IMG/VR virus record: IMGVR_UViG_3300006947_000076
Coordinates: 1-25,467 of that record
Strand: one strand, 5' to 3'
DNA length: 25,467 nucleotides
Source of the DNA: a virus
The notes under the pieces were generated by a model, which had not been told where the DNA came from, ran no database searches, and saw only the letters and a program-made list of their open reading frames with translations. Positions 2,353 through 23,415 of the stretch are shown one piece after another. A program made the position numbers and the translations under genes. Position 1 is the first letter of the stretch. Each line of letters starts with the position of its first letter.

Positions 2353-2583
2353 TTATCTACTTTCTTTGTACCAAGTTGCAAACTGGTCAAAATGTTTGCC
2401 GTTCTCAAATCTAACACAATCCTCGTCCACATTTGTAAAAGTTTTAACATCATGCAGGTGCTTAGGAACATTAAGTTTAAGCCAGTCTTTAGTACGGTTT
2501 CGCATATCGGTATGAATGAAGACCTGGTAGTAACTAGCCATCAGCCATTTTCGTTTAAAATCACATATATCATTCGGGGTCAT
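2353..2583 (-). CDS. Conserved phage protein of unknown function, 76 aa
   Basis: The frame extends upstream to 2622, but the ATG at 2583-2581 has a perfect AGGAGG five bases before it and the earlier ATG has none, so the shorter form is annotated. The protein is small and soluble, with MTPNDICDFKRKWLM at its N-terminus and FTNVDEDCVRFENGKHFDQF near its C-terminus, and is rich in aromatic and charged residues. Function not recognised. It overlaps the zinc-ribbon gene upstream by 14 bases and is the last gene of the operon from the 3310-3338 promoter. Confidence 0.82.
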   Translation of the reverse strand: MTPNDICDFKRKWLMASYYQVFIHTDMRNRTKDWLKLNVPKHLHDVKTFTNVDEDCVRFENGKHFDQFATWYKESR

Positions 2584-2740
2584 TACAGCCTCCTGTGCCA
2601 AGTAAGGGTTTTTGTCCCTCATCTAAATACCAAGGTATCTCAGTTTGACAATCACAGCATAGCTTTAGATTAAGGGTAGACAGTAGTATAAGATGGGTAT
2701 TACCGCAATTAGGACATTCTTTAGTCGTTATCTTGCTCAT
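2570..2740 (-). CDS. Small zinc-ribbon protein, 56 aa
   Basis: This short frame begins MSKITTKECPNCGN. It has two CxxC knuckles: C9/C12 (CPNC) and C28/C31 (CCDC), separated by a hydrophobic stretch (THLILLSTLNLKL). This is the standard layout of a zinc ribbon, and the segment after the second knuckle (IPWYLDEGQKPLLG) resembles small phage zinc-finger proteins I recall. A strong purine-rich ribosome site (AAAGGAGAAGGG) precedes the ATG. Such ribbons usually bind nucleic acid or protein; the partner is unknown. It overlaps both neighbours in a leftward operon. Confidence 0.85.
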   Translation of the reverse strand: MSKITTKECPNCGNTHLILLSTLNLKLCCDCQTEIPWYLDEGQKPLLGTGGCNDPE

Positions 2741-2849
2741 TCCCTTCTCCTTTGTTCTGGTATTGTTTAGCGGCTCCGTATGCTCCTATGAAAAACATAA
2801 CAGCAGCAATAGAGCCTATTATAGTTGATATAATCTCATGTCCTGTCAT
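2721..2849 (-). CDS. Small membrane peptide, 42 aa
   Basis: ATG at 2849-2847 shares TAATG with the stop of the metallopeptidase gene. The 42-residue product has a hydrophobic segment at about residues 6-26 (IISTIIGSIAAVMFFIGAYG) followed by a hydrophilic tail (KQYQNKGEGNEQDND). This fits a single-pass membrane protein with the tail in the cytoplasm. It overlaps the following zinc-ribbon gene by 20 bases. Function unknown; it is one of several tiny membrane proteins in the leftward arm. Confidence 0.7.
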   Translation of the reverse strand: MTGHEIISTIIGSIAAVMFFIGAYGAAKQYQNKGEGNEQDND

Positions 2850-3286
2850 TATTCATTCCAGTATAGGTCGGTTAGTATGTCTTCAAAGCCGTAGGCTTCA
2901 ACTTCCCACGGGGTCTCAGCGTACTCTAGTAAAGAGCAGTCGATTACAGTGGTAGAGTTAGTCCATACATCGTTGTCCATGTTGATCTGCTTTCTACAGA
3001 ATTGCTTGGCGTGTGTAAGCTCGTGAGCAATTGCTTCCGCTATCTCGTGAGGAAAGAACTCTATCTCCTCGCCTTCACAAATCCAGTGTGTAGCTATGTC
3101 GATAACAGACTCTACGTCATCGCCTGTACAAAGCCCGGCATGGTGCTCATTAGGTTCACCAATGAATTTGCCAACAACTATTGTGATGTCGTAAACAGCA
3201 TCCGTAGGGAATAGAGTAGTAACACAGTCATCAATGAACTGATTGTATTTAGTGTCGAGTATGCCTTCAATTTGTACGTTAATCAT
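2849..3286 (-). CDS. Predicted zinc metallopeptidase (HExxH), 145 aa
   Basis: The zincin signature HELTH is at residues 88-92 (H88 and H92 as zinc ligands, E89 as the general base), inside an alpha-helical stretch (EIAEAIAHELTHAKQF). About 35 residues later the pattern PWEVEA (126-131) supplies a glutamate as probable third ligand. This HELTH...PWEVEAYG layout is seen in small phage-encoded metallopeptidases, which I know only as predictions. The N-terminal 80 residues form the rest of a small alpha/beta domain with no signal peptide, so it should act in the cytoplasm. Substrate unknown; an early host-takeover protease or a SprT-like DNA-repair role are both possible. It is first in its operon, behind its own promoter and a GGAG site. 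Confidence 0.82.
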   Translation of the reverse strand: MINVQIEGILDTKYNQFIDDCVTTLFPTDAVYDITIVVGKFIGEPNEHHAGLCTGDDVESVIDIATHWICEGEEIEFFPHEIAEAIAHELTHAKQFCRKQINMDNDVWTNSTTVIDCSLLEYAETPWEVEAYGFEDILTDLYWNE

Positions 3287-3309
3287 TTGTTTCTCCAGTT
3301 TATAAAGCT

Positions 3310-3338
3310 ATTATACGGGCTTTTAAGGAGAAAGTCAA
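3310..3338 (-). promoter_or_regulatory. Sigma70-type promoter, leftward
   Basis: On the minus strand TTGACT (3338-3333) and TATAAT (3315-3310) have a 17-base spacer. It starts four bases after the stop of the bS21 gene and drives the metallopeptidase operon. Confidence 0.88.
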
Positions 3339-3341
3339 GTC

Positions 3342-3545
3342 TTAAAATAATTTAGGAGGATTAGTTGACCCTTGCCTTTTACGTTCCCTCTGCTTGGCCG
3401 CTGCCTTCTTTCTCTGCTTTTTAGTAGTGGGCTTCTCGTATTGTTGTTTCTCTTTGTACTGATAGAGTAAGTTACTCTCTGTCACTTTTCTACGAAAAAT
3501 ACGCAGAGCTTGCTCTACGTTGTTGTTTCTGACTTTTACTTGCAT
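3342..3545 (-). CDS. Phage-encoded ribosomal protein bS21 homologue
   Basis: The 67-residue protein matches the bS21 plan: a short beta-like N-terminus (MQVKVRNNNVEQALRIFRRK, where bacterial S21 has KVRENEPFDVALRRFKR), a helix with the ESNLLYQYKEKQQYEKPTTK segment corresponding to bacterial REFYEKPTTERKR, then a very basic tail (KKAAAKQRERKRQG). bS21 sits at the platform of the 30S subunit near the anti-Shine-Dalgarno sequence and helps initiation. Phage copies are known from metagenomic and cultured phages and are thought to replace host S21. Its ATG directly follows the TAA of the 27-aa gene. It is shorter than typical bacterial S21 at the C-terminus. It is expressed early from the promoter at 3803-3831. 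Confidence 0.88.
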   Translation of the reverse strand: MQVKVRNNNVEQALRIFRRKVTESNLLYQYKEKQQYEKPTTKKQRKKAAAKQRERKRQGSTNPPKLF

Positions 3546-3629
3546 TTATTCATCCCAATCGTCCCTGTCCCTAGTAAATATCCACAGGAATAGTGCTGCG
3601 AATACGAGGGCTATTTCTAAAGGTGTCAT
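3546..3629 (-). CDS. Tiny membrane peptide, 27 aa
   Basis: The frame MTPLEIALVFAALFLWIFTR plus an acidic tail (DRDDWDE) fits exactly between two genes. Its ATG shares ATGA with the upstream stop, and its TAA abuts the ATG of bS21. One hydrophobic helix covers about residues 4-19. The perfect coupling is the main support; the peptide itself has no recognisable family. Translation through it may couple bS21 synthesis to the first gene. Confidence 0.65.
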   Translation of the reverse strand: MTPLEIALVFAALFLWIFTRDRDDWDE

Positions 3630-3796
3630 TTAAATCTGACACCTCTTTTCTTTAAGTAGTTTACTTGATTACGAACACTCTGCTCTGTTCTGTCTGGTAG
3701 CATATCGCACATCTCGTCTATAGACGCATGATGGTAATATTGAGTAAGATGCTTACGCTCTCTTTCTGTCCACGGCTTGTTTTTATATTTTTTCAT
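3626..3796 (-). CDS. Small SANT/HTH-like DNA-binding protein, 56 aa, probably leaderless
   Basis: The protein begins MKKYKNKPWTERERKHLTQY and continues with a helix-turn-helix-like half ending EQSVRNQVNYLKKRGVRF. A tryptophan followed by an acidic helix, then an 'S-V-R-x-x-x-x-L-K-K-R-G' recognition helix, is the layout of SANT/Myb or GcrA-like modules. The same module recurs in the genes at 9318-9755 and 12265-12990. No Shine-Dalgarno precedes the ATG. The -10 hexamer ends only six bases before it, so transcription should start at or next to the ATG. As the first gene leftward, it may be an early regulator (inference). Confidence 0.78.
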   Translation of the reverse strand: MKKYKNKPWTERERKHLTQYYHHASIDEMCDMLPDRTEQSVRNQVNYLKKRGVRFK

Positions 3797-3802
3797 GGGA
3801 GT

Positions 3803-3831
3803 ATTATACTGCCAACGGACAGCTATGTCAA
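3803..3831 (-). promoter_or_regulatory. Sigma70-type promoter, leftward, at the divergent region
   Basis: On the minus strand TTGACA (3831-3826) and TATAAT (3808-3803) are spaced 17 bases. It drives the 56-aa DNA-binding protein, the 27-aa peptide and bS21, with essentially no 5' leader. It is back-to-back with two rightward promoters. Confidence 0.9.
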
Positions 3832-3863
3832 GATATTTTTTAGGGCATGGTCAAAAATTCTCC

Positions 3864-3892
3864 TTGACATTATCCTCTTTTTCAGGTATAAT
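3864..3892 (+). promoter_or_regulatory. Sigma70-type promoter, rightward, first of a tandem pair
   Basis: TTGACA (3864-3869) and TATAAT (3887-3892) have a 17-base spacer, with T-rich sequence in the spacer. It faces away from the leftward promoter 33 bases upstream and lies 76 bases before a second rightward promoter. Confidence 0.88.
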
Positions 3893-3939
3893 GCTCATTA
3901 AGAAGTTAAGAAAAGAACTGGGTAATTATAAGATAGTTC

Positions 3940-3968
3940 TTGACACATTACCTTAAACTGCGTATAAT
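3940..3968 (+). promoter_or_regulatory. Sigma70-type promoter, rightward, second of a tandem pair
   Basis: TTGACA (3940-3945) and TATAAT (3963-3968), 17 bases apart, follow the recurrent ATAGTTC context. It heads the block of small genes, lysis genes and glycosyltransferases at 4014-6872, in which I see no further promoter or terminator. Confidence 0.92.
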
Positions 3969-4013
3969 AGTTATTCTGAAATGGAGTTACCCATTAAAGA
4001 AACGGAGATACTT

Positions 4014-4151
4014 ATGATAGAACTAGCGATATTTGTGTTTTGCCTTATAGGGTGCGGTGTAAGCTGCCACGCTGTAGGAAAGCAAGAAGGTATCGCAGCG
4101 GCTATTGAACACTTAGTCGATAACGGGATGCTAGAAATAGATGAAGAATAG
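4014..4151 (+). CDS. Small membrane protein, 45 aa
   Basis: The hydrophobic N-terminus (IELAIFVFCLIGCGVSC, residues 2-18) is followed by GKQEGIAAAIEHLVDNGMLEIDEE, an amphipathic and acidic cytoplasmic part. From memory this plan (a short membrane anchor, then an 'EG..AAIE.L...G.LE.D' tail) is common in small phage proteins of unknown role. GGAG lies eight bases before the chosen ATG. An in-frame ATG at 3981 would add 11 residues but lacks a ribosome site. It is the first gene after the tandem promoters and overlaps the next by 11 bases. Confidence 0.75.
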   Translation: MIELAIFVFCLIGCGVSCHAVGKQEGIAAAIEHLVDNGMLEIDEE

Positions 4152-4311
4152 ATTAATACTACGCGAAGAGGTACTAGACGATCACACTATTCGCTATATC
4201 GTGGAAGATGCACACCAAGTGTATATGCTAACAGGCAACCTAGCCGTAGCAGAAGAGTTAGTAAGAAACCTTAAACTAGAATACCAACGGGAGCTACAAA
4301 ATGCCAGTTAA
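4141..4311 (+). CDS. Small protein of unknown function, 56 aa
   Basis: The frame begins MKNRLILREEVLDDHTIRYI and ends VRNLKLEYQRELQNAS. It is charged, mostly alpha-helical in appearance, with no membrane segment and no motif. It overlaps the previous gene by 11 bases and the next by 11 bases, which is the normal spacing here and the main support. The ribosome site is weak (purine-rich GGGATG further upstream), so translation may depend on coupling. Function not recognised. Confidence 0.65.
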   Translation: MKNRLILREEVLDDHTIRYIVEDAHQVYMLTGNLAVAEELVRNLKLEYQRELQNAS

Positions 4312-4489
4312 ATTTAAAGAAACAACCAAAATCTTAGTAGATCGTCAAGCGAAGAAGTATAGAACTCAGAACTTTTATATGCACGCTACGACTACAGACC
4401 AATTATTAGAAGCCTTCAACTCAAGCAGTACTCGTGGGCCTCGCAAACAAAAGATTCGTAACGAGTTAGTAAAGCGTAACGCAGTCTAG
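4301..4489 (+). CDS. Small basic conserved phage protein, 62 aa
   Basis: The sequence MPVKFKETTKILVDRQAKKY is followed by a variable middle and a basic end (GPRKQKIRNELVKRNAV). I recall similar small proteins with an MP-KFK start and a 'K.K.R.ELV.RG' end in T4-like and other marine phages, none with an assigned role. The net positive charge and the C-terminal basic helix suggest nucleic-acid or ribosome contact (inference). A GGGAG site lies eight bases before the ATG. Confidence 0.82.
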   Translation: MPVKFKETTKILVDRQAKKYRTQNFYMHATTTDQLLEAFNSSSTRGPRKQKIRNELVKRNAV

Positions 4490-4559
4490 GCAAAGTAGTC
4501 TCGCCTTTTAGTAGACTAAAGTAGGGCAGTCAGCCCAAGTTTCCAAAGGAGACATAGTA

Positions 4560-4667
4560 GTGACACATAGTAATGAGGCCGCGTGCATATTCTGCAACAC
4601 GGTTACAGCAGTATGCTGTTTAGCCTTGCCGTTTTTGACAATATACGCCAGCGTACTAGCAGCATAA
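4560..4667 (+). CDS. Small membrane peptide upstream of lysozyme, 35 aa (GTG start)
   Basis: A GTG at 4560 follows AAAGGAG by about seven bases and opens a 35-residue frame. It has four cysteines and a hydrophobic stretch (AVCCLALPFLTIYASVLAA, residues 17-35) that reaches the C-terminus. It ends 11 bases before the lysozyme start. The position at the head of a lysozyme-holin cassette suggests an accessory lysis peptide such as an antiholin, but no family is recognised. The 70 bases before it hold no other gene. Confidence 0.55.
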   Translation: MTHSNEAACIFCNTVTAVCCLALPFLTIYASVLAA

Positions 4668-6163: not shown

Positions 6164-6872
6164 TGAGTACGTCAGAGGCAAGGATATAATCCTAGTAGGG
6201 AACGATCTTAACGCCCTGACTGTAGAAAATGGTAACTATATCAACGAGCATGACGTAGTTCTGCGCTTTGGTAAAGGTATCCCGAACGACAAGACTGGCA
6301 GGTATATAGGTGACTATACAGATATTTGGGTCACAGGACAGTTAAGACAGGCTAGTGTTACTAATATCCCAAAGGACACAAAGATACTCTTCAACAATTC
6401 TCTGTACTCTAAGAAGTTTGGTAGATTAAAAGAAGATCATCTACAGATGTATACGGAAGAAGAGATTTGTGCACTAGCAGAAGATTATGGTATACAAGAA
6501 GGGCGTCGACTAAGTGCAGGGTGTGTTACAAGTCATTGGTTGGCTAACCGAGTTTCTGGTTGGAAAAGTCTTACATGGGTTAACTTCGATTGTTTTCGTA
6601 ACTGGTTTGTGTACCACGATGACGGTGCAGGGAAAGACTCAATTGCAACCAGTTGGCACATACCCTTGCTAAGACAAGACTATGTAGGGTGGAGACCTTC
6701 TGAAGGCGATCAACATCCTGCTCACGATCCTGAAGTAGAACAGCGTATATACAAAGACCTTTTAACCTTTCCCAACACTTATTGGAAAGGAACCTTTGAA
6801 GATAAAAGCAAATTCATTCCTACCCCTAGGGTCGTATGGACACACGGAAGATCCGAAGCAACGAAAGAATAG
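6144..6872 (+). CDS. Sialyltransferase-like glycosyltransferase (GT29-like), 242 aa
   Basis: The N-terminal segment KDIILVGNDLNALTVENGNY (13-32) and the following EHDVVLRFGKG (35-45) reproduce the L-motif of GT29 sialyltransferases (VGN, then I...D.V.R.N). SAGCVTSHWLANRVSG (124-139) fits the S-motif position, and HPAHDPEVEQ (191-200) fits the short VS motif with its His and Glu. GT29 enzymes use CMP-sialic acid; whether this one does is unproven. There is no membrane anchor, unlike the Golgi enzymes. The ATG at 6144 follows GAGG and overlaps the previous gene by 20 bases; an earlier in-frame start at 6090 would overlap it by 74. Its stop codon lies inside the next promoter. Confidence 0.75.
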   Translation: MTLEDFNEYVRGKDIILVGNDLNALTVENGNYINEHDVVLRFGKGIPNDKTGRYIGDYTDIWVTGQLRQASVTNIPKDTKILFNNSLYSKKFGRLKEDHLQMYTEEEICALAEDYGIQEGRRLSAGCVTSHWLANRVSGWKSLTWVNFDCFRNWFVYHDDGAGKDSIATSWHIPLLRQDYVGWRPSEGDQHPAHDPEVEQRIYKDLLTFPNTYWKGTFEDKSKFIPTPRVVWTHGRSEATKE

Positions 6873-6875
6873 TTC

Positions 6876-6904
6876 TTGACAAGCATTCTGAAATTGCGTA
6901 TAAT
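6876..6904 (+). promoter_or_regulatory. Sigma70-type promoter, rightward
   Basis: TTGACA (6876-6881) and TATAAT (6899-6904) have a 17-base spacer, preceded by ATAGTTC whose TAG is the stop codon of the upstream gene. The 19 bases from the -10 onward are identical to those at the 11456-11484 promoter. Confidence 0.93.
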
Positions 6905-6930
6905 ACATATTCAATTTCAGAGAGTACCAC

Positions 6931-10501: not shown

Positions 10502-11431
10502 ATGCGAGAGTTTTTAGATCGGGCAAGTAAGTTATACTACGAAGGTACTCCTCTTCTTTCAGATGCGGAGTTTGACTTCCTAGCAACTAAACATAACTAC
10601 ACGACAGTTGGGTATGAGGTTACTGATGCAGTGCCACATACATACCAAATGTATTCGTTGCAGAAGTGTTTTGACCTTACTAAAGCTCCGATTAACATTC
10701 TTGAATGCATAGTATCCCCTAAACTAGATGGAGCAGCAGTATCTATTCTATATGTCAACGGTGAGTTAGCGTTAGCGTTAACACGCGGTGACGGCATACA
10801 TGGTAGAGACATCACTGATAAGATGAAGCATTTAGTACCTAATATTATTAAGTACTCAGGTGTTGTTCAGATTACAGGTGAAGTTGTTGCTCCAAGTAGT
10901 GTTACAAATTCTCGTAACTTTGCTTCGGGATCTCTCGGACTTAAAGGACTCAAGGGTCTTGAAGAGTTCATGCAAAGGCCCTTGGTCTTTGTAGCCTATG
11001 ATAGTAGTAATCTTTATGATAACTACTCTGAGGAGATGAACTGGCTTCGTCATGGTTGTGGCTTTAATGTTGTAACCTTGTTCGATTGTACTCGCTATCC
11101 TACGGATGGTACAGTATACAAGTTATGGGATGGCAACAAGTTTAGAGACTTGGGTCACACTGCTAAACATCCTCGCGGTGCGTTTGCTCTTAAAGAACAA
11201 GCCACTGGCGTGGAGACTACTCTCCTAGATGTCGTATGGCAGATAGGCAAGAGTGGGGTTGTAAGTCCTGTAGCAATCCTGTCCCCGATTACGATTGGTG
11301 ATGCGGTTGTTGCTAGGGCTACACTACACAACATTGAGTATATACGCGACCTCAACCTTGAGATAGGTTGTAGTGTAGAAGTAATACGCTCAGGAGAGAT
11401 CATACCTCGTGTCGTAAGACGCATAGATTGA
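10502..11431 (+). CDS. ligA: NAD+-dependent DNA ligase, N-terminal subunit (adenylation + OB)
   Basis: This is the catalytic half of a split NAD+ ligase that seals nicks, using NAD+ to adenylate a lysine. The N-terminal ASKLYYEGTPLLSDAEFDFL (8-27) is the Ia region that binds the NMN half of NAD+. The active-site lysine is K74 in SPKLDG, followed by TRGDG (94-98), GEV with E127 (motif III) and RNFASGSLG (138-146). VVWQIGKSGVVSPVA (about 243-257) and ATLHN (about 273-277) are the end of the adenylation domain and the OB fold. The protein stops at 309 aa, where a bacterial LigA of about 670 aa continues into zinc finger, HhH and BRCT. Those are encoded by the next gene. Phage T5 also has a two-subunit ligase. 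Confidence 0.93.
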   Translation: MREFLDRASKLYYEGTPLLSDAEFDFLATKHNYTTVGYEVTDAVPHTYQMYSLQKCFDLTKAPINILECIVSPKLDGAAVSILYVNGELALALTRGDGIHGRDITDKMKHLVPNIIKYSGVVQITGEVVAPSSVTNSRNFASGSLGLKGLKGLEEFMQRPLVFVAYDSSNLYDNYSEEMNWLRHGCGFNVVTLFDCTRYPTDGTVYKLWDGNKFRDLGHTAKHPRGAFALKEQATGVETTLLDVVWQIGKSGVVSPVAILSPITIGDAVVARATLHNIEYIRDLNLEIGCSVEVIRSGEIIPRVVRRID

Positions 11432-11455
11432 TTGCTACCTTCGCAAAAATAGTTC

Positions 11456-11484
11456 TTGACTACAAACCCAAAGTTCCGTATAAT
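11456..11484 (+). promoter_or_regulatory. Sigma70-type promoter, rightward
   Basis: TTGACT (11456-11461) and TATAAT (11479-11484) are separated by 17 bases. It sits between the two ligase genes and drives subunit B and the SANT-like array gene. Confidence 0.92.
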
Positions 11485-11510
11485 ACATATTCAATTTGAG
11501 AGGAAACTAA

Positions 11511-12260
11511 ATGACCACAATCGAAGCCCCAACAAACTGCCCCTCGTGTAGTTCGGTGTTAGAAGTAGTCAATCAACTCTTATATTGTAGAAACGCATCC
11601 TGTGGAACAAAGATATCGAAGCTCATGGAGCATTTCGCTAGTACCCTCAAGATCAAAGGTCTTGGCCCAGTAGCAGTACAAAAACTAGATATTCAGTCTC
11701 TTGATGAGCTGTACCGTTTAGATTTAGATGACTGCTCTGAAGGTCTTGGCTCCTTGAAGCTAGGCGAGAAGTTGTATGCTGAGATTCAGCGTTCCACTGG
11801 TGCACCTCTAAATGTGCTATTACCGGCTTTTAGTATTCCACTAATAGGCAAAACAGCATCAGCAAAATTATCAAAAGTTTGTACAGATATTGATGAAATA
11901 GACTACGATACTTGTAAAGAGGCTGGCCTAGGTGAGAAGTCTACAGCCAACCTATTAGCATGGCTAGACGAAGAGTTCTACCTGCTAGGTAATCTACCAT
12001 TTAGTTTCAAGTTTGACGCTCCTAGTAGCAAGCCTACAGCTCTGGGTACAGTATGTATCACAGGTAAGCTGGTTAGTTATAAAACTAAGGCTTTGGCTCA
12101 CGCGGCACTTGAAGAAGTTGGGTATGGTCACAAATCTAGCTTAACAAAGGATGTAACAATCCTAGTAAACGAAAGCGGAATAGAGTCCGCAAAAACCAAG
12201 AAGGCCAGAGATGCTGGCGTTCAAATTGTAACTAACCTTTTAGAATTCATTGGAGAATAA
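11511..12260 (+). CDS. ligB: NAD+-dependent DNA ligase, C-terminal subunit (Zn finger + HhH + BRCT)
   Basis: The four-cysteine zinc finger of LigA is at the N-terminus: C10 and C13 (NCPSC), C26 and C31 (YCRNASC). Helix-hairpin-helix repeats follow: LKIKGLGPVAVQKL (46-59), and later IPLIGKTASAKLSKV and EAGLGEKSTANLLAWL. The C-terminal domain (LGTVCITGKLVSYKTKALAH, then SLTKDVTILVNES) is BRCT-like, matching the 'G..F.ITG.L' opening. This is exactly the part missing from the upstream gene, so the two proteins should assemble into one ligase. No frameshift joins them: 79 bases with a promoter and a ribosome site separate the genes, so the split is real. Confidence 0.92.
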   Translation: MTTIEAPTNCPSCSSVLEVVNQLLYCRNASCGTKISKLMEHFASTLKIKGLGPVAVQKLDIQSLDELYRLDLDDCSEGLGSLKLGEKLYAEIQRSTGAPLNVLLPAFSIPLIGKTASAKLSKVCTDIDEIDYDTCKEAGLGEKSTANLLAWLDEEFYLLGNLPFSFKFDAPSSKPTALGTVCITGKLVSYKTKALAHAALEEVGYGHKSSLTKDVTILVNESGIESAKTKKARDAGVQIVTNLLEFIGE

Positions 12261-13070: not shown

Positions 13071-14417
13071 TTGAATATTGCAAGTGCGCTTATAAAGCAA
13101 GTGCTGACCGTCCAAGACTTTGAGACTTGGTCTGTTACTCACAAGCATTATATGCCAGCAGAGTACCATAGCCTCTACGGGGTTATTGAAAAGCATTGCG
13201 AGACATTTCATAAGATGCCCTCGATTGAAGACCTGAAACTTGAGATCCGTGATTCAGATACTAGAGATAAATTATATGCTGTTGAGGCCGTTCAGGTCGA
13301 TTCAGAACCATATATGCTTCTCGAATATCTGAAGAACGAGTATACTCAAAAACAAATTCTGGATTCATTGGAAGATTTCATTGATAACTCTGTTGCGTTT
13401 GAGGATGCACAAGAGTCTGTCGATCACCTACATCAAATTGTCTTAGACATAGAAGGTAGAGTTGATTTGGAAGATCCACAAGAAAGTATGCAACGTATTG
13501 ACTTGTTTGAACCAGAAGAAGATATAGCTAAGTACATACCTCTCGGACTTAATGCCGAGTACGACCACTCAGTACAATTTTCTCCCAAGGATCTTGTAAT
13601 GGTTGGTGGTAAGCGTGGAGCTGGTAAGTCAGTTATATGTGCAAACATTGCTAACAGTGTTATCGCTTCTGGTAAATCTGCTATGTATTTCACTATTGAG
13701 ATGGATAGCAGAGATATCATACAGCGGTGCTGTTCAATCGCCACTGGTGTTCCCTTCTCTCGTCTGCGTACTAAGAATCTTAGTATTGTTGAATGGGATA
13801 AGGTAGCTACCTGGTGGTCTGAACGCTTCGTGTTGGGGCAAGACCGTTTGAAAGAATATAAACAACATCGTGATTTTAGTAAGTTTCATACTAGACTTAA
13901 AGAAGGTGAGCTCCTCCCGACTCAGCAACTTGACGTTATCTATGAACCTTCTTTGACCCTTGCTAAGATTCGTGCCGAGCTTGATAAAAAAGTTCGTCCG
14001 TTGAACGTAGGTATCATTATTGTTGACTATATAAACCAAGTAAAGCGGTCGAGTCTTCCCAATAGAGGTGGTCAGTATGACTGGACTGAGCAGATAGAAG
14101 TTAGTAAAGCCCTCAAAGAAATGGCACAAGAGTACAACTGTACTGTTATGACACCATATCAAACAGACGCAAGTGGAGAAGCACGTTTCGCAAAAGGCAT
14201 CCTAGATGCTGCTGATGCGGCCTATACGTTAGAAACATGGGATCATGAGGATGCTTGTATCACTCTGAACTGTGTGAAGATGCGTAGAGGAGGCATGGAT
14301 TCGTTCACCTCAACTGTGGACTGGGATACTCTAAAAATCGGTCCCGAGTCCGCCTTGACGCCTCAAGAGAAAGACGATTCATCCCATAAAACGGGCGAAG
14401 ACGTCCACGATCTTTAA
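13071..14417 (+). CDS. Replicative DNA helicase, DnaB-like (TTG start), 448 aa
   Basis: This RecA-fold hexameric helicase unwinds the fork ahead of the polymerase. After an N-terminal helical domain (1-150), the core has Walker A GGKRGAGKS (179-187), the catalytic glutamate E210 in YFTIEMD, Walker B GIIIVDYINQV (314-324), a sensor-type glutamine in TPYQTDASGEARFAKG, and the arginine-rich VKMRRGGMD near residues 415-425 that fits the DnaB arginine finger and loop. The TTG start follows GGGAG by seven bases, and no ATG lies nearby. The C-terminus is acidic. It is placed after a terminator with no promoter, so its level may be set by read-through. It works with the primase encoded two genes on. 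Confidence 0.92.
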   Translation: MNIASALIKQVLTVQDFETWSVTHKHYMPAEYHSLYGVIEKHCETFHKMPSIEDLKLEIRDSDTRDKLYAVEAVQVDSEPYMLLEYLKNEYTQKQILDSLEDFIDNSVAFEDAQESVDHLHQIVLDIEGRVDLEDPQESMQRIDLFEPEEDIAKYIPLGLNAEYDHSVQFSPKDLVMVGGKRGAGKSVICANIANSVIASGKSAMYFTIEMDSRDIIQRCCSIATGVPFSRLRTKNLSIVEWDKVATWWSERFVLGQDRLKEYKQHRDFSKFHTRLKEGELLPTQQLDVIYEPSLTLAKIRAELDKKVRPLNVGIIIVDYINQVKRSSLPNRGGQYDWTEQIEVSKALKEMAQEYNCTVMTPYQTDASGEARFAKGILDAADAAYTLETWDHEDACITLNCVKMRRGGMDSFTSTVDWDTLKIGPESALTPQEKDDSSHKTGEDVHDL

Positions 14418-14425
14418 AATAGTTC

Positions 14426-14454
14426 TTGACAAGTAAGCCAAAGTTCAGTATAAT
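14426..14454 (+). promoter_or_regulatory. Sigma70-type promoter, rightward
   Basis: TTGACA (14426-14431) and TATAAT (14449-14454) have a 17-base spacer and the same ATAGTTC context, nine bases after the helicase stop. It heads the long block from 14481 to 23415, in which no other promoter of this type is seen. Confidence 0.93.
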
Positions 14455-14480
14455 AGTTCTTCGTAAACAGAGGAGCGCAT

Positions 14481-15586: not shown

Positions 15587-17849
15587 GGTTGCCCTAATAG
15601 AAACCAAACCGAGTAGAACCAATTTTAAGTCAGAGTTTGATGAGTCATTTGAGTTTGACCAGTATCAGCTTTGCTCTGACCCCAACCTAAAGAAAGTACT
15701 AAAACGAGACTGTGACATCGAAATTGATGTTGACGCATACGACTGGATTATCCTAGTAGGCAGTGACGCACTCAAGTACTTTACCAAGACTAACTCCGTA
15801 ACAGAGTACTCTGGCAAGAAAGTAGAAGAGAAGTACTTACCTGTTATCAACCCTGCAATGCTTGCATTTAAGCCAGAAGCTCAACGTACCTGGGACGACT
15901 CTAAGCAGAGTATTATAGAGTATATCACCGGTGATAAACAAGACACGGTAATTACTACATATAACGCTTGGGGTATTCAAGATACGGCAGAAGCCAATGC
16001 TTTCTTTCAAGCAGCTATTGACGCACCCCTCCCTTATGTTGCACTCGACTCCGAGACAACAGCCTTATGGCCTAGAAATGGTCACGTATTAGGGCTGAGC
16101 TTGTCTTACGAAGCAGATCGTGGTGCTTACATAGATACAGAGTGCTTAGACGAAGAATCAGAGCGGCTACTACAAGAGCTATTCGATAAGAAGATAGTAG
16201 TATTTCATAATGCTAAGTTTGACTTGGCGTTCTTTGAGTACCACTTCAACTTTAACTTTCCTCGCTTCGAAGATACTATGCTACTTCACTATCTTATTGA
16301 CGAGAATCCAGGCACACATGGCCTGAAACAGCTATCCATGAAGTATACAATCTATGGCGACTATGAGAAGCCTATGTATGATTGGATTGATAAGTATCGT
16401 AAGGAACATGGCATCCTCAAGGCTGACTTTAACTGGGGCGATATTCCTTTTGATATTATGAAGCTATACGCAGGTATGGATGCTGCGTGTACTTTCTTGC
16501 TCTATGAGAAGTTTGTAAAAATTAAACAAAACAAACGCTTGTGTAGTGTGTACGAGAATATACTTATACCAGGCTGTAGATTCTTGACAGATGTTCAAGA
16601 CAATGGCGTACCTTTTGATGTAGGCCGATTAACTAAGTCTCAGACTCTAATGCAAAAAGAGATTGATGAGGCCATAGCAAAACTTTATGAAAACGAAGGT
16701 ATTGCTAAATTCGAGACAATTAATGGAAAACACTTTAATCCTAATAGCACTGTGCAGCTTCGTAGTCTTTTGTTTGATTTCTTGGGGCTCTCTCCAACTG
16801 GAAAGAAAACTGGCACGGGAGCAAATAGCACAGATGCAGAAGTTCTTGAGGAGCTGGCTCAGCAGTCCGACATCCCCGGACTTATCCTTGCTATTAGACA
16901 GAAATCAAAAATTAAAAATACTTATTTGGACAAAATCATACCTCAGCTGGATAGAGATAGCAGGTTACGTACAGGTTTTAATCTACATAGTACAACTAGT
17001 GGGAGGCTTAGCTCTAGTGGGAAGCTTAATATGCAACAGCTCCCTCGTGACAATCCTATTGTAAAAGGCTGTATTAAAGCAGCTCCTGGCAATACTATTG
17101 TCGCAATGGATTTAACAACAGCAGAAGTATATGTTGCAGCTATCCTAGCAAAAGATAAAGCACTCATTGAAGTGTTCAAGGCGGGAGGTAACTTCCACTC
17201 AGCTATTGCTCATAAAGTGTTTAAACTACCTTGCGAGCCTAGTGAAGTAGCCGAATTATACGGTATGCAAAGACAGGCTGCTAAAGCTGTAACCTTTGGT
17301 ATTATGTATGGTGCCGGTGCAAACAAGATTAGTGAGCAGGTTACTAAAGATAGTGGTAAGCCTTTTACCAAGAATGAAGCTCAAGAAGTAATTGATGATT
17401 ACTTTGCAGAGTTCCATAAACTAAAAGAATGGATCGAAGATAACAAAAAGTTTATTAAACAAAATGGCTTTATATATAGTTACTTCGGCAGGAAAAGGAG
17501 ATTACCAAATGTCGCATCAACAGACTCGGGCATCCAAAGTCATAGTATTAGGTCTGGTCTTAATTTTCTGGTGCAGTCTGCTGCTTCTGATATTAACTTA
17601 CTAGGTGCAATAGATATGAATGCTTGGATTAAGTCTAACAACAAGGGTGCACGTATCTTTGCTCTTGTACACGATTCAATCCTAGCAGAAGTACCAAATG
17701 CAGAAGTAGACGAGTATATGTTAAAACTTGCTTCTTTCGTTCAGATGGATAGAGGCATCTCCATCCCAGGTGTTCCGGTCGGATGTGACTTTGAGATCAT
17801 ACACCAAGACTACTCCGGTGGTAAATTCGAGAAAATGTATGGGGCCTAA
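15579..17849 (+). CDS. DNA polymerase, family A, with 3'-5' exonuclease, 756 aa
   Basis: The proofreading exonuclease has D157 and E159 (ALDSETTALW), H210-N211 with D215 (VVFHNAKFDL) and YAGMD with D301. The polymerase domain has TTSGRLSS (472-479), motif A with D511 and the steric-gate E516 (MDLTTAEVYV), the O-helix R565-x3-K569-x3-F573-G (RQAAKAVTFGIMYG), and motif C H698-D699 (LVHDS). F573 is at the place of E. coli F762, which discriminates against dideoxynucleotides. Motif A departs from the usual DYSQIELR. Residues 1-120 are an extra domain with a uracil-DNA-glycosylase-like look. There is no 5'-3' exonuclease domain. It overlaps primase and the radical SAM gene. Confidence 0.96.
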   Translation: MAKVALIETKPSRTNFKSEFDESFEFDQYQLCSDPNLKKVLKRDCDIEIDVDAYDWIILVGSDALKYFTKTNSVTEYSGKKVEEKYLPVINPAMLAFKPEAQRTWDDSKQSIIEYITGDKQDTVITTYNAWGIQDTAEANAFFQAAIDAPLPYVALDSETTALWPRNGHVLGLSLSYEADRGAYIDTECLDEESERLLQELFDKKIVVFHNAKFDLAFFEYHFNFNFPRFEDTMLLHYLIDENPGTHGLKQLSMKYTIYGDYEKPMYDWIDKYRKEHGILKADFNWGDIPFDIMKLYAGMDAACTFLLYEKFVKIKQNKRLCSVYENILIPGCRFLTDVQDNGVPFDVGRLTKSQTLMQKEIDEAIAKLYENEGIAKFETINGKHFNPNSTVQLRSLLFDFLGLSPTGKKTGTGANSTDAEVLEELAQQSDIPGLILAIRQKSKIKNTYLDKIIPQLDRDSRLRTGFNLHSTTSGRLSSSGKLNMQQLPRDNPIVKGCIKAAPGNTIVAMDLTTAEVYVAAILAKDKALIEVFKAGGNFHSAIAHKVFKLPCEPSEVAELYGMQRQAAKAVTFGIMYGAGANKISEQVTKDSGKPFTKNEAQEVIDDYFAEFHKLKEWIEDNKKFIKQNGFIYSYFGRKRRLPNVASTDSGIQSHSIRSGLNFLVQSAASDINLLGAIDMNAWIKSNNKGARIFALVHDSILAEVPNAEVDEYMLKLASFVQMDRGISIPGVPVGCDFEIIHQDYSGGKFEKMYGA

Positions 17850-18780
17850 AGACGTATCCCACTACCTCTACAGGGTAGACCTAGACTTGACGGGCTTGTG
17901 CAATCGTACTTGTTACTTTTGTCCTCGCACGTTTAAGTCCTACCCTAACGTAAACGAGCATATGAGCTTAGAGACTATAGAGATAGTACTGGCAGAGCTA
18001 CGAGCTATCGATTTCAAAGGAGTTATAGAACTAGCGGGAAGGGGTGAGCCTACTCTGCATAATAAGTTTGATAAAGTAGTAGACTTAGTTACTGCACAAC
18101 CACGCAAGTGGGAAGTAAGAGTAACCACAAATGGCTATAGAATAGATAAGTTGTGGGGCGTATACGCCAAGATAGACGAGCTAATACTTAATACTTATAC
18201 TAACCAAGAAGATTCTGACTTCATGCGAAAAAAGTATGTTAAGCTGCCTAACGGTAAGCGTATAGAACATTACTTTAAGCCAGACACGCTCAGTGTAGAA
18301 GAGATGAATAAGCTAGGTCCACAACAAGACACTACCAAGGAAGACGGTCTCTACTTTACCTACCTATTCAATAACAGAGCAGGCGTGTTTAGTGAAGAGA
18401 GTGTTAAGGAGCCTTGCTTCCACCCCATGAGACAAATTTTTATAGACTATCATGGCAACTATCAGATGTGCTGTAATGACTGGAAGTACCAGATAATAAT
18501 TGGCAATGTTCATGAGCGTAGCTTAATGGATATGTATGAGAACGATGATAAATTAAACAGGATAAGATGGAGGCTTTTAAACGGAGATAGGAACGCAATA
18601 CTTCCTTGCTCTGTTTGTGATGATAAGCAGGGAGGCAGACCTCAGTCTCTACGGGTGATTAAGAAAGTAAAAAACCAAGACCCCTATAAGTTTATAATTT
18701 GTCCCTCCTCTAGGAAGGGTGCTCGCTTTGATGATGAGCTAAAGGGCGTAGAGATGCGACCAATTTTTGTAGAAGAATGA
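17839..18780 (+). CDS. Radical SAM/SPASM-type enzyme 1, 313 aa
   Basis: The radical SAM [4Fe-4S] motif CxxxCxxC is at C21, C25 and C28 (LCNRTCYFC), with GRGEP (67-71) as the SAM-binding GGE-like motif and VTTNG (95-99) as the strand that follows. A C-terminal SPASM-like cluster region has C193, C211, C212, C257 and C260 (MCCNDW; PCSVC). Such enzymes make a 5'-deoxyadenosyl radical and modify peptides, RNA or sugars; the substrate here is unknown. A longer frame reaches to 17728, but it would overlap the polymerase by over 120 bases, so the ATG at 17839 (11-base overlap) is chosen. A paralogue is encoded at 19926-20840. Confidence 0.9.
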   Translation: MGPKDVSHYLYRVDLDLTGLCNRTCYFCPRTFKSYPNVNEHMSLETIEIVLAELRAIDFKGVIELAGRGEPTLHNKFDKVVDLVTAQPRKWEVRVTTNGYRIDKLWGVYAKIDELILNTYTNQEDSDFMRKKYVKLPNGKRIEHYFKPDTLSVEEMNKLGPQQDTTKEDGLYFTYLFNNRAGVFSEESVKEPCFHPMRQIFIDYHGNYQMCCNDWKYQIIIGNVHERSLMDMYENDDKLNRIRWRLLNGDRNAILPCSVCDDKQGGRPQSLRVIKKVKNQDPYKFIICPSSRKGARFDDELKGVEMRPIFVEE

Positions 18781-19269: not shown

Positions 19270-19929
19270 ATGGCTAAAAAACGGAAGACACTCGCTGGCG
19301 CGAGCTTGGAGCTAAGGGAGATCGAACCATTAACCAGAAATCAGCTGACAGCATTTGAGTCAGAGAAAAACTTAGTATTGCACGGATTGGCAGGTACAGG
19401 TAAAACATTTATCTCCTCCTATCTAGCATACGATGATATGGCGAAGGGTAAGTATCAGAACTTAGTAATTATTCGTAGCGCAGTACCAACCCGAGACATA
19501 GGATTTCTACCGGGAACTGAGAAAGAAAAAGGTTCAGTATATGAGGAGCCTTATAAAGATATTGCTATAGACTTGTTTGGAAGAGGGGATGCGTATGAGA
19601 TCCTGAAGAACAAGAGTTTAGTACACTTTATGACTACTTCTTTTATTAGAGGTATAACACTAAGAGATGCAGTCATCCTTATTGATGAGTGCCAAAACAT
19701 GAGTTTTCATGAATTAGATTCTATCATCACTCGTATGGGTGAGAACTGTAGAATCATGTTCTGCGGAGACTTTAGACAGGCAGACTTAAAGGCTAACGGC
19801 CTACAAGATTTTATTCGTGTACTAAAACGAATGGAACGCTTTACCTTCATTGACTTCCAAGTAGAAGACATTGTTAGGTCTGAGTTTGTTAAAGACTACA
19901 TTATAGCTAAGAATGAATTAAACTTATGA
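19270..19929 (+). CDS. phoH: PhoH-like ATPase, 219 aa
   Basis: This P-loop ATPase of the PhoH family has Walker A GLAGTGKT (39-46) and Walker B VILIDECQN with D139 and E140. The family-typical RSAVPTRDIGFLPGTEKEK (69-87) and FCGDFRQADLKANG (about 158-171) are also present. The role of phage PhoH is unsettled; links to RNA metabolism and phosphate stress have been proposed, and it is a common marker gene in marine phages. The ATG at 19270 is chosen over an upstream frame start at 19222, which would overlap the preceding gene. It shares ATGA with radical SAM 2. The ribosome site is weak, so coupling is likely. Confidence 0.94.
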   Translation: MAKKRKTLAGASLELREIEPLTRNQLTAFESEKNLVLHGLAGTGKTFISSYLAYDDMAKGKYQNLVIIRSAVPTRDIGFLPGTEKEKGSVYEEPYKDIAIDLFGRGDAYEILKNKSLVHFMTTSFIRGITLRDAVILIDECQNMSFHELDSIITRMGENCRIMFCGDFRQADLKANGLQDFIRVLKRMERFTFIDFQVEDIVRSEFVKDYIIAKNELNL

Positions 19930-20840
19930 TTATCCCAACAGTAGCTGTTGATCAGCATGACTTTTTAAAACATAGACGAGATCAGGAAACCCTGCACTGG
20001 ACTAACAATCCAACAGATTCCCTTCTGCGTTCCATACTTACGGTAGAAGTAAATACTACCGAGTTGTGTAATAGAACCTGTGTATTTTGCCCTAGGCACA
20101 ATCCTGAAGTATTCCCCAACAGGAACCTTCATATGAGTCCTAAAGGGGCACTGATAATAGCTACAGAGCTTGCTGCTAATGATTTTAGAGGTAAGATATC
20201 TCTCAGCGGGTTCGGAGAGAACCTACTTAACCCTGACTTTCCTCAGATAGTGCAGATATTTAAACATAGCCTGCCCGACGCTACAGTAGAGTGTAATACC
20301 AACGGGGATAAGCTGACCTACGAACTCGCTAGAGATTTGTTTGATGTATGCGGCCTGGACTTACTCTATATTAATCTGTATGATGGTATAGAGCAGATGG
20401 AGCATTTCGATAAAGTTATGCGAGATGTACCTACAAGTAAGTTTAAGTACCGTATGCACTGGGGAGATTTTGAAAAGCATGGTTTAATTTTGAACAATAG
20501 AAGCGGTGTTATGGATTGGGTAGGAGTAGAAGAAAGTAGTGTTACTGCTTTACAAGGTAAGCCTTGTCACTACCCCTTCTATAAAATGTTTGTAGATTGG
20601 AATGGTGATGTGCTGTTCTGTAGCAATGACTGGGGACGCGAGCACGTAGTAGGTAACCTACTAATGCAGGATCTCTCGAGCGTTTGGCTGGGCAAGCCCA
20701 TGACTAAGATACGGAAGAAGTTAATGAAAGGAGATAGAAGCAACTCTCCTTGTAATAAGTGTAGTGTAGACGGGTCTCTCTTTGGAAAGCCCTCGTTTGA
20801 TTTACTAAAGGAGCACTATGAAAATTCTAATAACAGGTAG
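19926..20840 (+). CDS. Radical SAM/SPASM-type enzyme 2, 304 aa
   Basis: C48, C52 and C55 (LCNRTCVFCPR) form the radical SAM cluster motif, with GFGEN (95-99) as the GGE-like motif and ECNTNG (122-127) after it. The SPASM-like part has C214, C232, C276 and C279 (PCHYPFYKMFVDWNGD; FCSNDWG; PCNKC). It aligns by eye with radical SAM 1 along most of its length ('ELCNRTC-FCPR...N-HMS', 'VDWNGD' against 'IDYHGN', 'NDW', 'KGDR/NGDR'), but has a longer N-terminus and Ser where enzyme 1 has the second Cys of CC. I infer duplication and divergence. The substrate is unknown. It overlaps the SDR-like gene by 23 bases. Confidence 0.9.
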   Translation: MIIPTVAVDQHDFLKHRRDQETLHWTNNPTDSLLRSILTVEVNTTELCNRTCVFCPRHNPEVFPNRNLHMSPKGALIIATELAANDFRGKISLSGFGENLLNPDFPQIVQIFKHSLPDATVECNTNGDKLTYELARDLFDVCGLDLLYINLYDGIEQMEHFDKVMRDVPTSKFKYRMHWGDFEKHGLILNNRSGVMDWVGVEESSVTALQGKPCHYPFYKMFVDWNGDVLFCSNDWGREHVVGNLLMQDLSSVWLGKPMTKIRKKLMKGDRSNSPCNKCSVDGSLFGKPSFDLLKEHYENSNNR

Positions 20841-21360: not shown

Positions 21361-22627
21361 TAACAGAATATACATGGATTGTAGTGCCGAATTGCAAGAT
21401 AAAATAGATAAAGAACTTACTTATGCAATACCGACACATAACCCGTTAGACCCCCCTCTAATGATTAAGAATATGGGTATTATACGCAATGGACTCGTCT
21501 CTATACCCGCAGGTCGTATTGATTTGATACCGTCCAATTACGATATAGTAGATAAGCGCGTAAACATACCAGTAGACTTTCCTGAGTTTAGGTTCGAGTT
21601 ACGACCAAGCCAGAAAGAGGTTTATGACAAGATCGAAGACAACGCTATAATCAACGCATGGGTTAGCTGGGGAAAGACTTTTACAGGTTTAGCAATCGCG
21701 GGTAAGTTAGGTCAGAAAACACTTGTTGTTACCCACACTGTAGCTCTACGTAATCAATGGGCGAAAGAAGTAAAGAAAGTCTATGGTTTTGAACCTGGCA
21801 TCATAGGCAGTGGTAGATTTGAACTTGATGCTCCTATCGTTATTGGGAATACCCAAACACTTTACCGAAACCTAGACAAGATTCGTAAAGAGTTTGGCAC
21901 TATCATCTTGGATGAAATGCATCACGTAAGTAGTCCGACCTTTTCCAAAGTTCTTGATACAAACCATTGTCGCTATAAGATAGGGTTATCAGGAACCATA
22001 GAACGTAAGGATGGTAAGCACGTAGTATTCAGAGATTACTTTGGTAACACTCTATTTCAGCCCCCTAAAGAGAACTATATGACGCCTACTGTGCATACTG
22101 TTCATTCGGAGATCCGCTTTATGGATGGAGCTAAAACTCCTTGGGCAAATAGAGTTACAAAATTATCAAACGATGAAGAGTACCGACATACTGTATCAAT
22201 GTTAGCAGCAGCGTATGCGGCACGAGGACACAAAGTTCTAGTAGTAAGTGACAGAGTTAGTTTTCTCAAAGCGTGTTCTGAGTTAACGGGGGACAGAGCA
22301 GTATGTGTGACTGGAGACGTTTCTCACGAAGAACGTGAAGCCTTAGTAGAAGAAGTATTGTCTGGAAATAAGAACGTACTATATGGTACACAGTCTATAT
22401 TTTCAGAAGGTATATCAGTAGACTCTCTTAGCTGTTTGATACTAGGAACACCTGTTAACAACGAACCCTTACTCACCCAGCTTGTAGGACGAGTGATAAG
22501 ATTAAGAGAAGGAAAGATAGACCCTGTAGTTGTAGACATACACTTAAGAGGTAATACCGCTAGAAAGCAGGCCTCTAACCGTATGGGGTTCTACATGAAA
22601 CAGGGTTGGGAGATAAAATACTTATGA
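21344..22627 (+). CDS. SF2 DNA helicase, UvsW/XPB-like, 427 aa
   Basis: A UvsW-like N-terminal part (1-80) precedes the helicase motifs: FELRPSQKEV (84-93), Walker A WVSWGKT (106-112), motif Ia VVTHTVALRNQW, motif II DEMHH (190-194), motif III GLSGTIERKDG, motif V in SEGISVDS and motif VI QLVGRVIRLREG. In phage T4 UvsW unwinds R-loops and branched DNA and drives the switch to recombination-dependent replication. The Walker A lacks the usual Gly-x-Gly but still fits [AG]x4GK[ST]. It overlaps the SDR-like gene by 17 bases and the oxygenase gene by four, so it is part of the long 14481-23415 block. Confidence 0.9.
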   Translation: MKAVISNRIYMDCSAELQDKIDKELTYAIPTHNPLDPPLMIKNMGIIRNGLVSIPAGRIDLIPSNYDIVDKRVNIPVDFPEFRFELRPSQKEVYDKIEDNAIINAWVSWGKTFTGLAIAGKLGQKTLVVTHTVALRNQWAKEVKKVYGFEPGIIGSGRFELDAPIVIGNTQTLYRNLDKIRKEFGTIILDEMHHVSSPTFSKVLDTNHCRYKIGLSGTIERKDGKHVVFRDYFGNTLFQPPKENYMTPTVHTVHSEIRFMDGAKTPWANRVTKLSNDEEYRHTVSMLAAAYAARGHKVLVVSDRVSFLKACSELTGDRAVCVTGDVSHEEREALVEEVLSGNKNVLYGTQSIFSEGISVDSLSCLILGTPVNNEPLLTQLVGRVIRLREGKIDPVVVDIHLRGNTARKQASNRMGFYMKQGWEIKYL

Positions 22628-23415
22628 TAAGACCTGAATTTACATGGGAAGACTTAATAGCCCCCATGACAGACGAAGCCTTTATGTCTACTGTGAAAGG
22701 CAAGAAGGCTTTGGTTATTAGAGGAGACAACTTTAAGAAAAACTTCTTTAGTAATATTACTAGCTGGGAGCAGATCTCCCAGTACGTAGCTAATGATAGA
22801 GCCTCTGCGGGGTTGCAGGTAATTACCCCTAAGGGAGACAAACTATGTATGGAAAAGGGAAATTGTCATAATCGACCTCAACCTGCATGGACTAAAAATG
22901 ATTGGTATGATAAACAACTAGTAGGCAAAATGTGGGGAGAAGGAGGTAGTATAATACTTACCAAAGCATCTATGATGAGTCCCAATATGTCCGCTGTAGG
23001 TAATGCTCTGGAAGCAAGATTCAAGAATAGTGCAGCAGACGCACACTTCTACTGCTCTGGAAAGAAGAATGCGGTTTCTTTCGAGACTCATGCTGATCAA
23101 GACGATAACTTCCTAGTACACGCCATAGGCAGGGTACACTGGAAAGTATATAATGTATTCGCCAGGAGTGAGATCGTAGCTGGCAGAAAGAAGTTTACTA
23201 CTCGACTTACAATGACTGATAAAGAGGCAAGTAAGTACACTCCCGTAATTGATACAATACTAGAGCCAGGGGATTTATTATATATTCCCTCTGGAATGTT
23301 TCACAAAGCAACCCCTGCCTCGGCCCGAGTTTCAATCTCAGTGCCTCTAATGGAAAATGCAGGAAAGCGACCAATAGACCGAGACTATTATGACTTTGAA
23401 AAAAATAATTCTTGA
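22624..23415 (+). CDS. JmjC/cupin-4 2-oxoglutarate oxygenase, ribosomal-oxygenase-like, 263 aa
   Basis: The Fe(II) ligands are visible as H156-x-D158 (FETHADQDDNFLVHAIGRVH) and H227 in EPGDLLYIPSGMFHKATP, followed by RVSISVPL. The same layout (HxDxxDxFLxQxxGxxxW, then LEPGDxLYxPxGxxH) is found in bacterial YcfD/RoxA, which hydroxylates an arginine of ribosomal protein uL16. The N-terminal 110 residues (LVIRGDNFKKNFFSNITSWE) match the pre-JmjC region of that family. The target could be a ribosomal protein, another protein or a small molecule. ATG at 22624 shares ATGA with the helicase stop; an in-frame TTG at 22606 lacks a ribosome site. Its stop codon lies in the -35 box of the next promoter. 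Confidence 0.85.
   Translation: MIRPEFTWEDLIAPMTDEAFMSTVKGKKALVIRGDNFKKNFFSNITSWEQISQYVANDRASAGLQVITPKGDKLCMEKGNCHNRPQPAWTKNDWYDKQLVGKMWGEGGSIILTKASMMSPNMSAVGNALEARFKNSAADAHFYCSGKKNAVSFETHADQDDNFLVHAIGRVHWKVYNVFARSEIVAGRKKFTTRLTMTDKEASKYTPVIDTILEPGDLLYIPSGMFHKATPASARVSISVPLMENAGKRPIDRDYYDFEKNNS

Follow-up and report, generated by a model that had tools for sequence, protein, structure and literature searches.

Among the ribosomal proteins that phages encode, bS21 is described as the most frequent (PMC9976891, PMC9723584), and 1,310 virus genomes or contigs are reported to carry it (PMC6375957). The Pelagibacter phage HTVC008M, a 147-kb myovirus, encodes a bS21 of 67 aa that enters the 70S ribosome of E. 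coli and, in vitro, reduced the translation activity of such ribosomes to ~5% (PMC6375957). In the large phages of Bacteroidetes, bS21 is also phage-encoded and is thought to replace the host protein; its genes lie among those for terminase, portal, protease and capsid and are expressed late, and a core structural gene lies within ten genes of bS21 in 388 of 900 published phages that carry it (PMC9723584). Within the ribosome, bS21 adjoins the anti-Shine-Dalgarno (anti-SD) sequence (PMC9723584, PMC9976891), and the autoregulation of rpsU in Flavobacterium indicates that bS21 status alters which mRNAs initiate (PMC9976891). Furthermore, 61S ribosomes, which are without bS1, uS2 and bS21, translate leaderless mRNA selectively, while bS21 is needed for mRNAs with an SD (PMC4929434).

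The bS21 described here (P0001) is, like that of HTVC008M, phage-encoded and 67 aa long, but incorporation into ribosomes has been seen for the HTVC008M protein, whereas P0001 belongs to a T5-like phage and is known from its sequence. Unlike the genes of the Bacteroidetes large phages, its gene lies on the replication side of the genome and has consensus sigma70 promoters. Flavobacterium rpsU carries an extended SD (PMC9976891); in contrast, the phage gene has a weak SD and overlaps or abuts the preceding cistron. A search of 50,697 phage records at E <= 0.01 matched P0001 solely to the bS21 proteins of the Pseudomonas PA5oct group, phages of 284-288 kb, and this match is weak (11 records, 45% over 40 residues, E 9e-3). 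The Methylophilales phage Melnitz has, as here, an annotated S21 with a distant relative of our zincin-like protein ~3.6 kb further on (29.9% over 44% of the query), but it belongs to the Kyanoviridae and has another gene order. A search of the open-licence literature found no description of a T5-like or leaderless phage bS21, and the available portions of PMC12584637, PMC13157829 and PMC11926189 held nothing on bS21 in T5-like phages. The lineage may nevertheless be among the 1,310 of PMC6375957. Phage bS21 is known; the T5-like lineage that carries it here, in a non-structural, probably leaderless operon, differs from the late structural-gene setting reported earlier.

The bS21 gene and its phage

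The window, by which we mean the whole 25,467-base virus record analysed, matches positions 61374-35791 of the IMG/VR contig G001 (L002; 69,033 bases) at 99.2-99.9%. The family A polymerase (44.8% to Proteus phages, full length), the T5-type helicase (29.7% to a reference phage protein) and the D5-like regulator (phrog_323, E 1.7e-44) match reference phages that we take to be T5-like, and by the evidence of these genes the window is part of a marine T5-like phage. Three proteins were scanned in the first 29 kb of G001, one matching a head maturation protease, one a tape measure protein and one nothing; both matches fall in the half away from bS21. Within about ten genes of bS21, capsid, prohead protease, portal and terminase families gave no match among the neighbours scanned, which were those other than the ORFs at 1340, 1510 and 3546 and many of which have no known function. 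As judged from these matches, the bS21 gene is on the replication side, away from the identified structural genes.

An earlier note on this DNA had read the ATG-initiated gene at 3342..3545 (minus strand) as a phage copy of bS21 within a leftward operon, and both parts of that reading hold, given the profile matches, the T5-like neighbours and the gene order on the minus strand. The search against Pfam Ribosomal_S21 (PF01165) that it proposed as a check gave a full-length match above the curated cut-off (54.6 bits against 27, E 8.8e-15, model positions 1-55 of 55). The NCBIfam equivalog TIGR00030 agreed (60.6 bits against 28.95, E 9.1e-17, positions 1-58 of 58), as did phrog_21469, 'ribosomal protein S21' (E 7.1e-11), and the solved structures nearest to it are of bS21 from bacterial ribosomes (9hig_U, E 1.9e-8). 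The basic C-terminal region that follows the YEKP segment is present in P0001 and conserved in alignment A3. The gene is a genuine phage bS21 of an already known kind in an unusual setting. ARAGORN found no tRNA genes in the window or in G001, which was searched as four pieces, and Rfam at gathering scores gave no match in window positions 2700-4600.

Several other genes of this phage and its relatives deserve mention. A JmjC_2 protein (22606-23415, plus strand; PF08007, E 1e-16), with relatives in 27 marine cyanophage records, has as its nearest solved relatives NO66, MINA53 and a bacterial uL16 arginine hydroxylase, which we take to be enzymes acting on ribosomal proteins; it is possibly a second ribosome-directed gene in the same phage. 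Two radical SAM/SPASM proteins (17728-18780 and 19926-20840, plus strand) flank a PhoH-like gene and one small ORF. An NAD-dependent DNA ligase (10502-12260, plus strand) is apparently split over two ORFs, the second identified by eye, with a consensus promoter between them. An IscU-type Fe-S scaffold is encoded at 7766-8203 of L019 (G001 62766-63203; TIGR01999, 237.4 bits against 192.4), and an ORF at 3385-3726 of L169 resembles, by eye, an A-type Fe-S carrier.

Promoters, lead cistron and probable coupling

The leftward operon begins behind a sigma70-type promoter that matches the consensus at 12 of 12 positions (TTGACA-17-TATAAT, 3831-3803, minus strand), with the -10 hexamer ending 6 nt before the ATG of the first cistron. 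That cistron (3626..3796, minus) encodes a 56-aa HTH protein that corresponds to one repeat of the D5-like regulator family (phrog_323, E 1.9e-6, alignment A2) and is found at 78 loci. It is followed by an ORF for a 27-aa peptide with an acidic tail (3546..3629, minus), taken by eye, from its hydrophobic stretch and acidic end, for a membrane peptide, whose stop abuts the ATG of bS21. Similar small ORFs precede and touch or overlap S21 in many relatives, and the acidic-tailed peptide is retained without S21 in L155 and L156. Reduced RpsU levels are mentioned in a paper on YohP, an E. coli membrane protein of 27 aa (PMC12719787); we see no connection to the peptide. Between S21 and the next gene lies a further promoter (3310..3338, minus, 11 of 12), and two divergent promoters that match the consensus perfectly face the other way (3864..3892 and 3940..3968, plus).

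Such promoters are far more frequent in G001 than in shuffled sequence, with 26 sites of at least 11/12 against a mean of 2.0 in ten shuffles and 12 perfect sites against 0.2. Only three of the 26 fall in the structural block, the first 29.3 kb, a distribution that fits pre-late transcription by the host polymerase. However, genes for a lysozyme and a holin lie downstream of the two divergent promoters, which are of the same consensus type, so the promoter type is no proof of early expression; the lysozyme, at 4583, matches both baseplate-hub lysozyme PHROGs and endolysins. Thus, where the earlier note spoke of a strong early promoter, 'strong' stands as a property of the 12/12 consensus, while 'early' is weakened by the lysis genes, and we would place the operon in early or middle infection. 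Separately, the promoter regions at 6862-6922, 11442-11502 and 14416-14455 are alike beyond their hexamers, with cross-matches at 80-87%.

The 78 HTH loci provide 55 distinct upstream sequences, and the best promoter in these scores 12/12 in 48, 10/12 in six and 8/12 in one. In 51 of the 55, TATAAT is separated from the HTH ATG by 6 nt, and in one by 5 nt; the remaining exceptions are L157 (8 nt by eye), L166 and L167. Transcripts usually start 7 nt after the -10 hexamer. With a 6-nt gap, the first transcribed base would thus be the A of the HTH start codon, and the lead cistron is, on this spacing, probably leaderless. In G001, 13 sites of at least 11/12 have a next ATG within 40 nt that opens at least 50 codons, and the gap at these is 6 nt in two, 23-32 nt in nine, and 12 and 1 nt in the rest. 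The two are the HTH gene of the bS21 operon and a weakly D5-like gene at 65484-65864; since the latter may start at an inner ATG, the HTH gene is the one firm case. Sites 19547, 39634 and 65899 also have an ATG 6 nt on, those after 19547 and 39634 opening just 5 and 2 codons.

We also considered that the leaderless start might serve S21 in particular. This is weakened by the S21-less relatives L119, L149, L155 and L156, which keep the 6-nt gap (the upstream region of L120 is a duplicate and is not listed), so that the leaderless start would belong to the HTH gene and not specially to S21. The S21 cistron itself is probably translated by coupling to the one before it, as its overlaps suggest. 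In 47 of 51 chosen loci the end of an upstream ORF falls between 2 nt ahead of S21 and 17 nt inside it, the exceptions being L057, L117, L158 and L167; the two ORFs overlap by 4 nt in 25 and abut in nine of the 51, and for L166 it is uncertain which codon starts S21. One branch (L030, L031, L060, L068 and L077) has the HTH gene itself overlapping S21. The SD of S21 is weak in the window (-4.0); of 36 chosen relatives, 19 have one of -5 or better.

Conservation, origin and the zincin-like neighbour

The bS21 operon is common to dozens of metagenomic contigs. Scans of viral contigs gave at least 85 bS21 loci, the second scan contributing the best 80 of 389 confirmed matches; among the matches listed, 53 of the 85 also have the HTH gene and 30 match by S21 alone, and the S21-based and HTH-based scans have many contigs in common. 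S21 lies downstream of the same small HTH gene at 72 of the 78 HTH loci. Five others (L119, L120, L149, L155 and L156) have downstream DNA but no S21, and the contig of the last, L162, ends 467 nt after the HTH gene, too soon to judge. No S21 was found elsewhere in these six contigs, all of which may be fragments. As two pairs are near copies, the five S21-less loci represent about three lineages, and their existence indicates that S21 is not essential. Pairwise dN/dS of S21 over 57 codons was 0.011-0.113 in 14 of 18 chosen pairs, dS being undefined in the other four; on these ratios the bS21 gene is under purifying selection.

The closest cellular bS21 found has 53% identity to P0001, in a sample of which 80 of 373 matches were listed; the list, mostly alphaproteobacterial, is biased because it was drawn with a single short peptide pattern. 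In the phylum of one alphaproteobacterial bS21 relative, 384 of 398 sampled genomes gave a match to P0001, so any host from that phylum would be very likely to carry a bS21 of its own. The best match in the scan of cellular contigs, L169, is from the same phage family and is filed in a Bacteroidetes MAG that encodes its own divergent bS21; we think that it is misbinned. A tree was built from 77 hand-picked bS21 rows (68 columns), and in it the 32 T5-like rows need two label changes, where shuffling gave a mean of 23.8. A single branch that has no cellular rows (SH-aLRT 88, not starred) carries 26 of them, including the window's, and another, L160, falls among the cellular rows. Resolution is weak, as 33 of the 64 inner branches stay open and the window lineage is in none of the starred sets that comprise up to half the rows; at that resolution, most T5-like rows appear to cluster apart from the other chosen phage bS21s.

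Next in the operon, at 2849..3286 (minus), is a gene for a 145-aa protein with an HExxH motif and a conserved downstream PWExEAY. The HExxH is kept in all 51 matches to this protein from 60 chosen loci. Its AlphaFold2 model (pLDDT 94.2) aligned best in VIA-align with 1oz9 (Z 9.7, 2.9 A, 111 residues), presumably a YbeY-family protein, and with M1 aminopeptidases, Wss1 and structures that bear the name YbeY. In BFVD, phage models called SprT-like match it at E 4.5e-7; a Foldseek search of the PDB had no hit at E <= 0.001, and what matches there are in Pfam are weak; the model thus places HExxH on a predicted zincin fold. The authors of PMC9976891 speculate that bS21 phages might encode a protease against host bS21, and the zincin-like protein is a putative partner of this kind, possible as a lead. 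However, the tie to S21 is weakened because all five S21-less loci retain the zincin-like gene and because the gene has its own promoter in the window. Downstream of it in the S21-less L119, an ORF at 2565-3710 resembles serine hydroxymethyltransferase by eye.

Possible roles of the phage bS21

We propose, at a probability of roughly 55%, that the operon-borne phage bS21 enters the host 30S subunit and keeps or shifts initiation toward phage mRNAs. The identity and conservation of bS21, the gene order, the perfect promoter, its spacing from the HTH ATG and the overlap of S21 with the preceding ORF are observed. From these, we suggest that host RNA polymerase would read the leftward operon, in early or middle infection, from the sigma70 promoter. 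For the lead cistron, which encodes the small DNA-binding protein of D5-like type, we predict a leaderless start, and translation of S21, as second or third cistron, would probably be coupled to that of its upstream neighbour. Since bS21 is loosely held and lies next to the anti-SD, the phage copy would most likely exchange into host 30S subunits. There it would keep the capacity for initiation, or shift it, toward phage mRNAs, most of which bear an SD.

The SD content of the phage genes bears directly on how such a preference could work. The earlier note had linked the phage bS21 to genes that lack an SD or start with TTG or GTG, so that altered ribosomes would favour these, and a related form of the idea is a block of the anti-SD as in Bacteroidota. 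The location of bS21 beside the anti-SD (PMC9723584, PMC9976891) speaks for both. However, SD pairing of -5 kcal/mol or better is found at 52% of 42 gene models with longest-ORF starts, against 18% of 836 window ATGs, so phage genes are enriched for SDs. The longest-ORF rule gives GTG or TTG starts to ten of the 42; in two of these genes, at 12250 and 22606, an ATG preceded by a good SD lies within 6 codons, and some of the others possess a fair SD themselves. Nor do relatives differ in the expected direction, as 57% of 302 genes have a good SD where S21 is present (23 of 72 loci chosen; 30% to 80% at single loci) and 68% of 34, a small sample, where it is absent (3 of 5 loci chosen). The Bacteroidota-type block is rejected on the protein itself: the aromatic residue 54 of the Bacteroidetes large-phage bS21, at the position responsible for the block in Bacteroidota, is absent from P0001, in which the residue aligned to Tyr54 of a Bacteroidetes MAG bS21 is Gln, the column is aromatic in 0 of 19 rows of A3, and the Tyr of 'YEKP' stands at another position. 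Promoters of the E. coli consensus presumably also argue against a Bacteroidota host. We therefore consider this account very improbable.

The near-equal SD usage with and without S21 also fits a simpler role, in which the phage protein is host-like and replaces falling host rpsU product during infection, with no mRNA preference. The conserved hallmarks of the family and the strong purifying selection would be expected of such a supplement; against it, no cellular bS21 found comes close to the lineage (best 53% among the matches listed from the sample), and 26 of 32 T5-like rows sit on the branch without cellular rows (SH-aLRT 88, not starred). We hold it as a rather doubtful but serious alternative. 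An unlikely one is that the phage bS21, once in the 30S subunit, depresses the initiation of host mRNAs. The HTVC008M protein, with which E. coli ribosomes had ~5% activity in vitro (PMC6375957), could point to this, since that activity could mean poisoning rather than help. The authors of that work offer a foreign-host mismatch or missing factors as the cause, and a general block would also strike phage mRNAs, which have ordinary SDs. A more elaborate proposal, to which we attach hardly any credence, joins the leaderless start and the neighbour in a start-up circuit for ribosome takeover. Host bS21 would be lost or removed, possibly by the zincin-like protein; the resulting bS21-poor ribosomes would favour the leaderless lead cistron; and the coupled phage bS21 would then refill the 30S subunit, rebuilding ribosomes with a phage subunit. 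If it were true, the operon would be translated best just when host bS21 is short.

Our preferred reading remains the entry of phage bS21 into the 30S subunit in favour of phage mRNAs. The role of phage bS21 has so far been tied to late infection, and the lineage of the window offers a second setting in which to probe it, with the S21-less relatives as a natural comparison. Conserved and specific as it is, this setting lends itself to a test of the function that we infer for bS21 in these phages.
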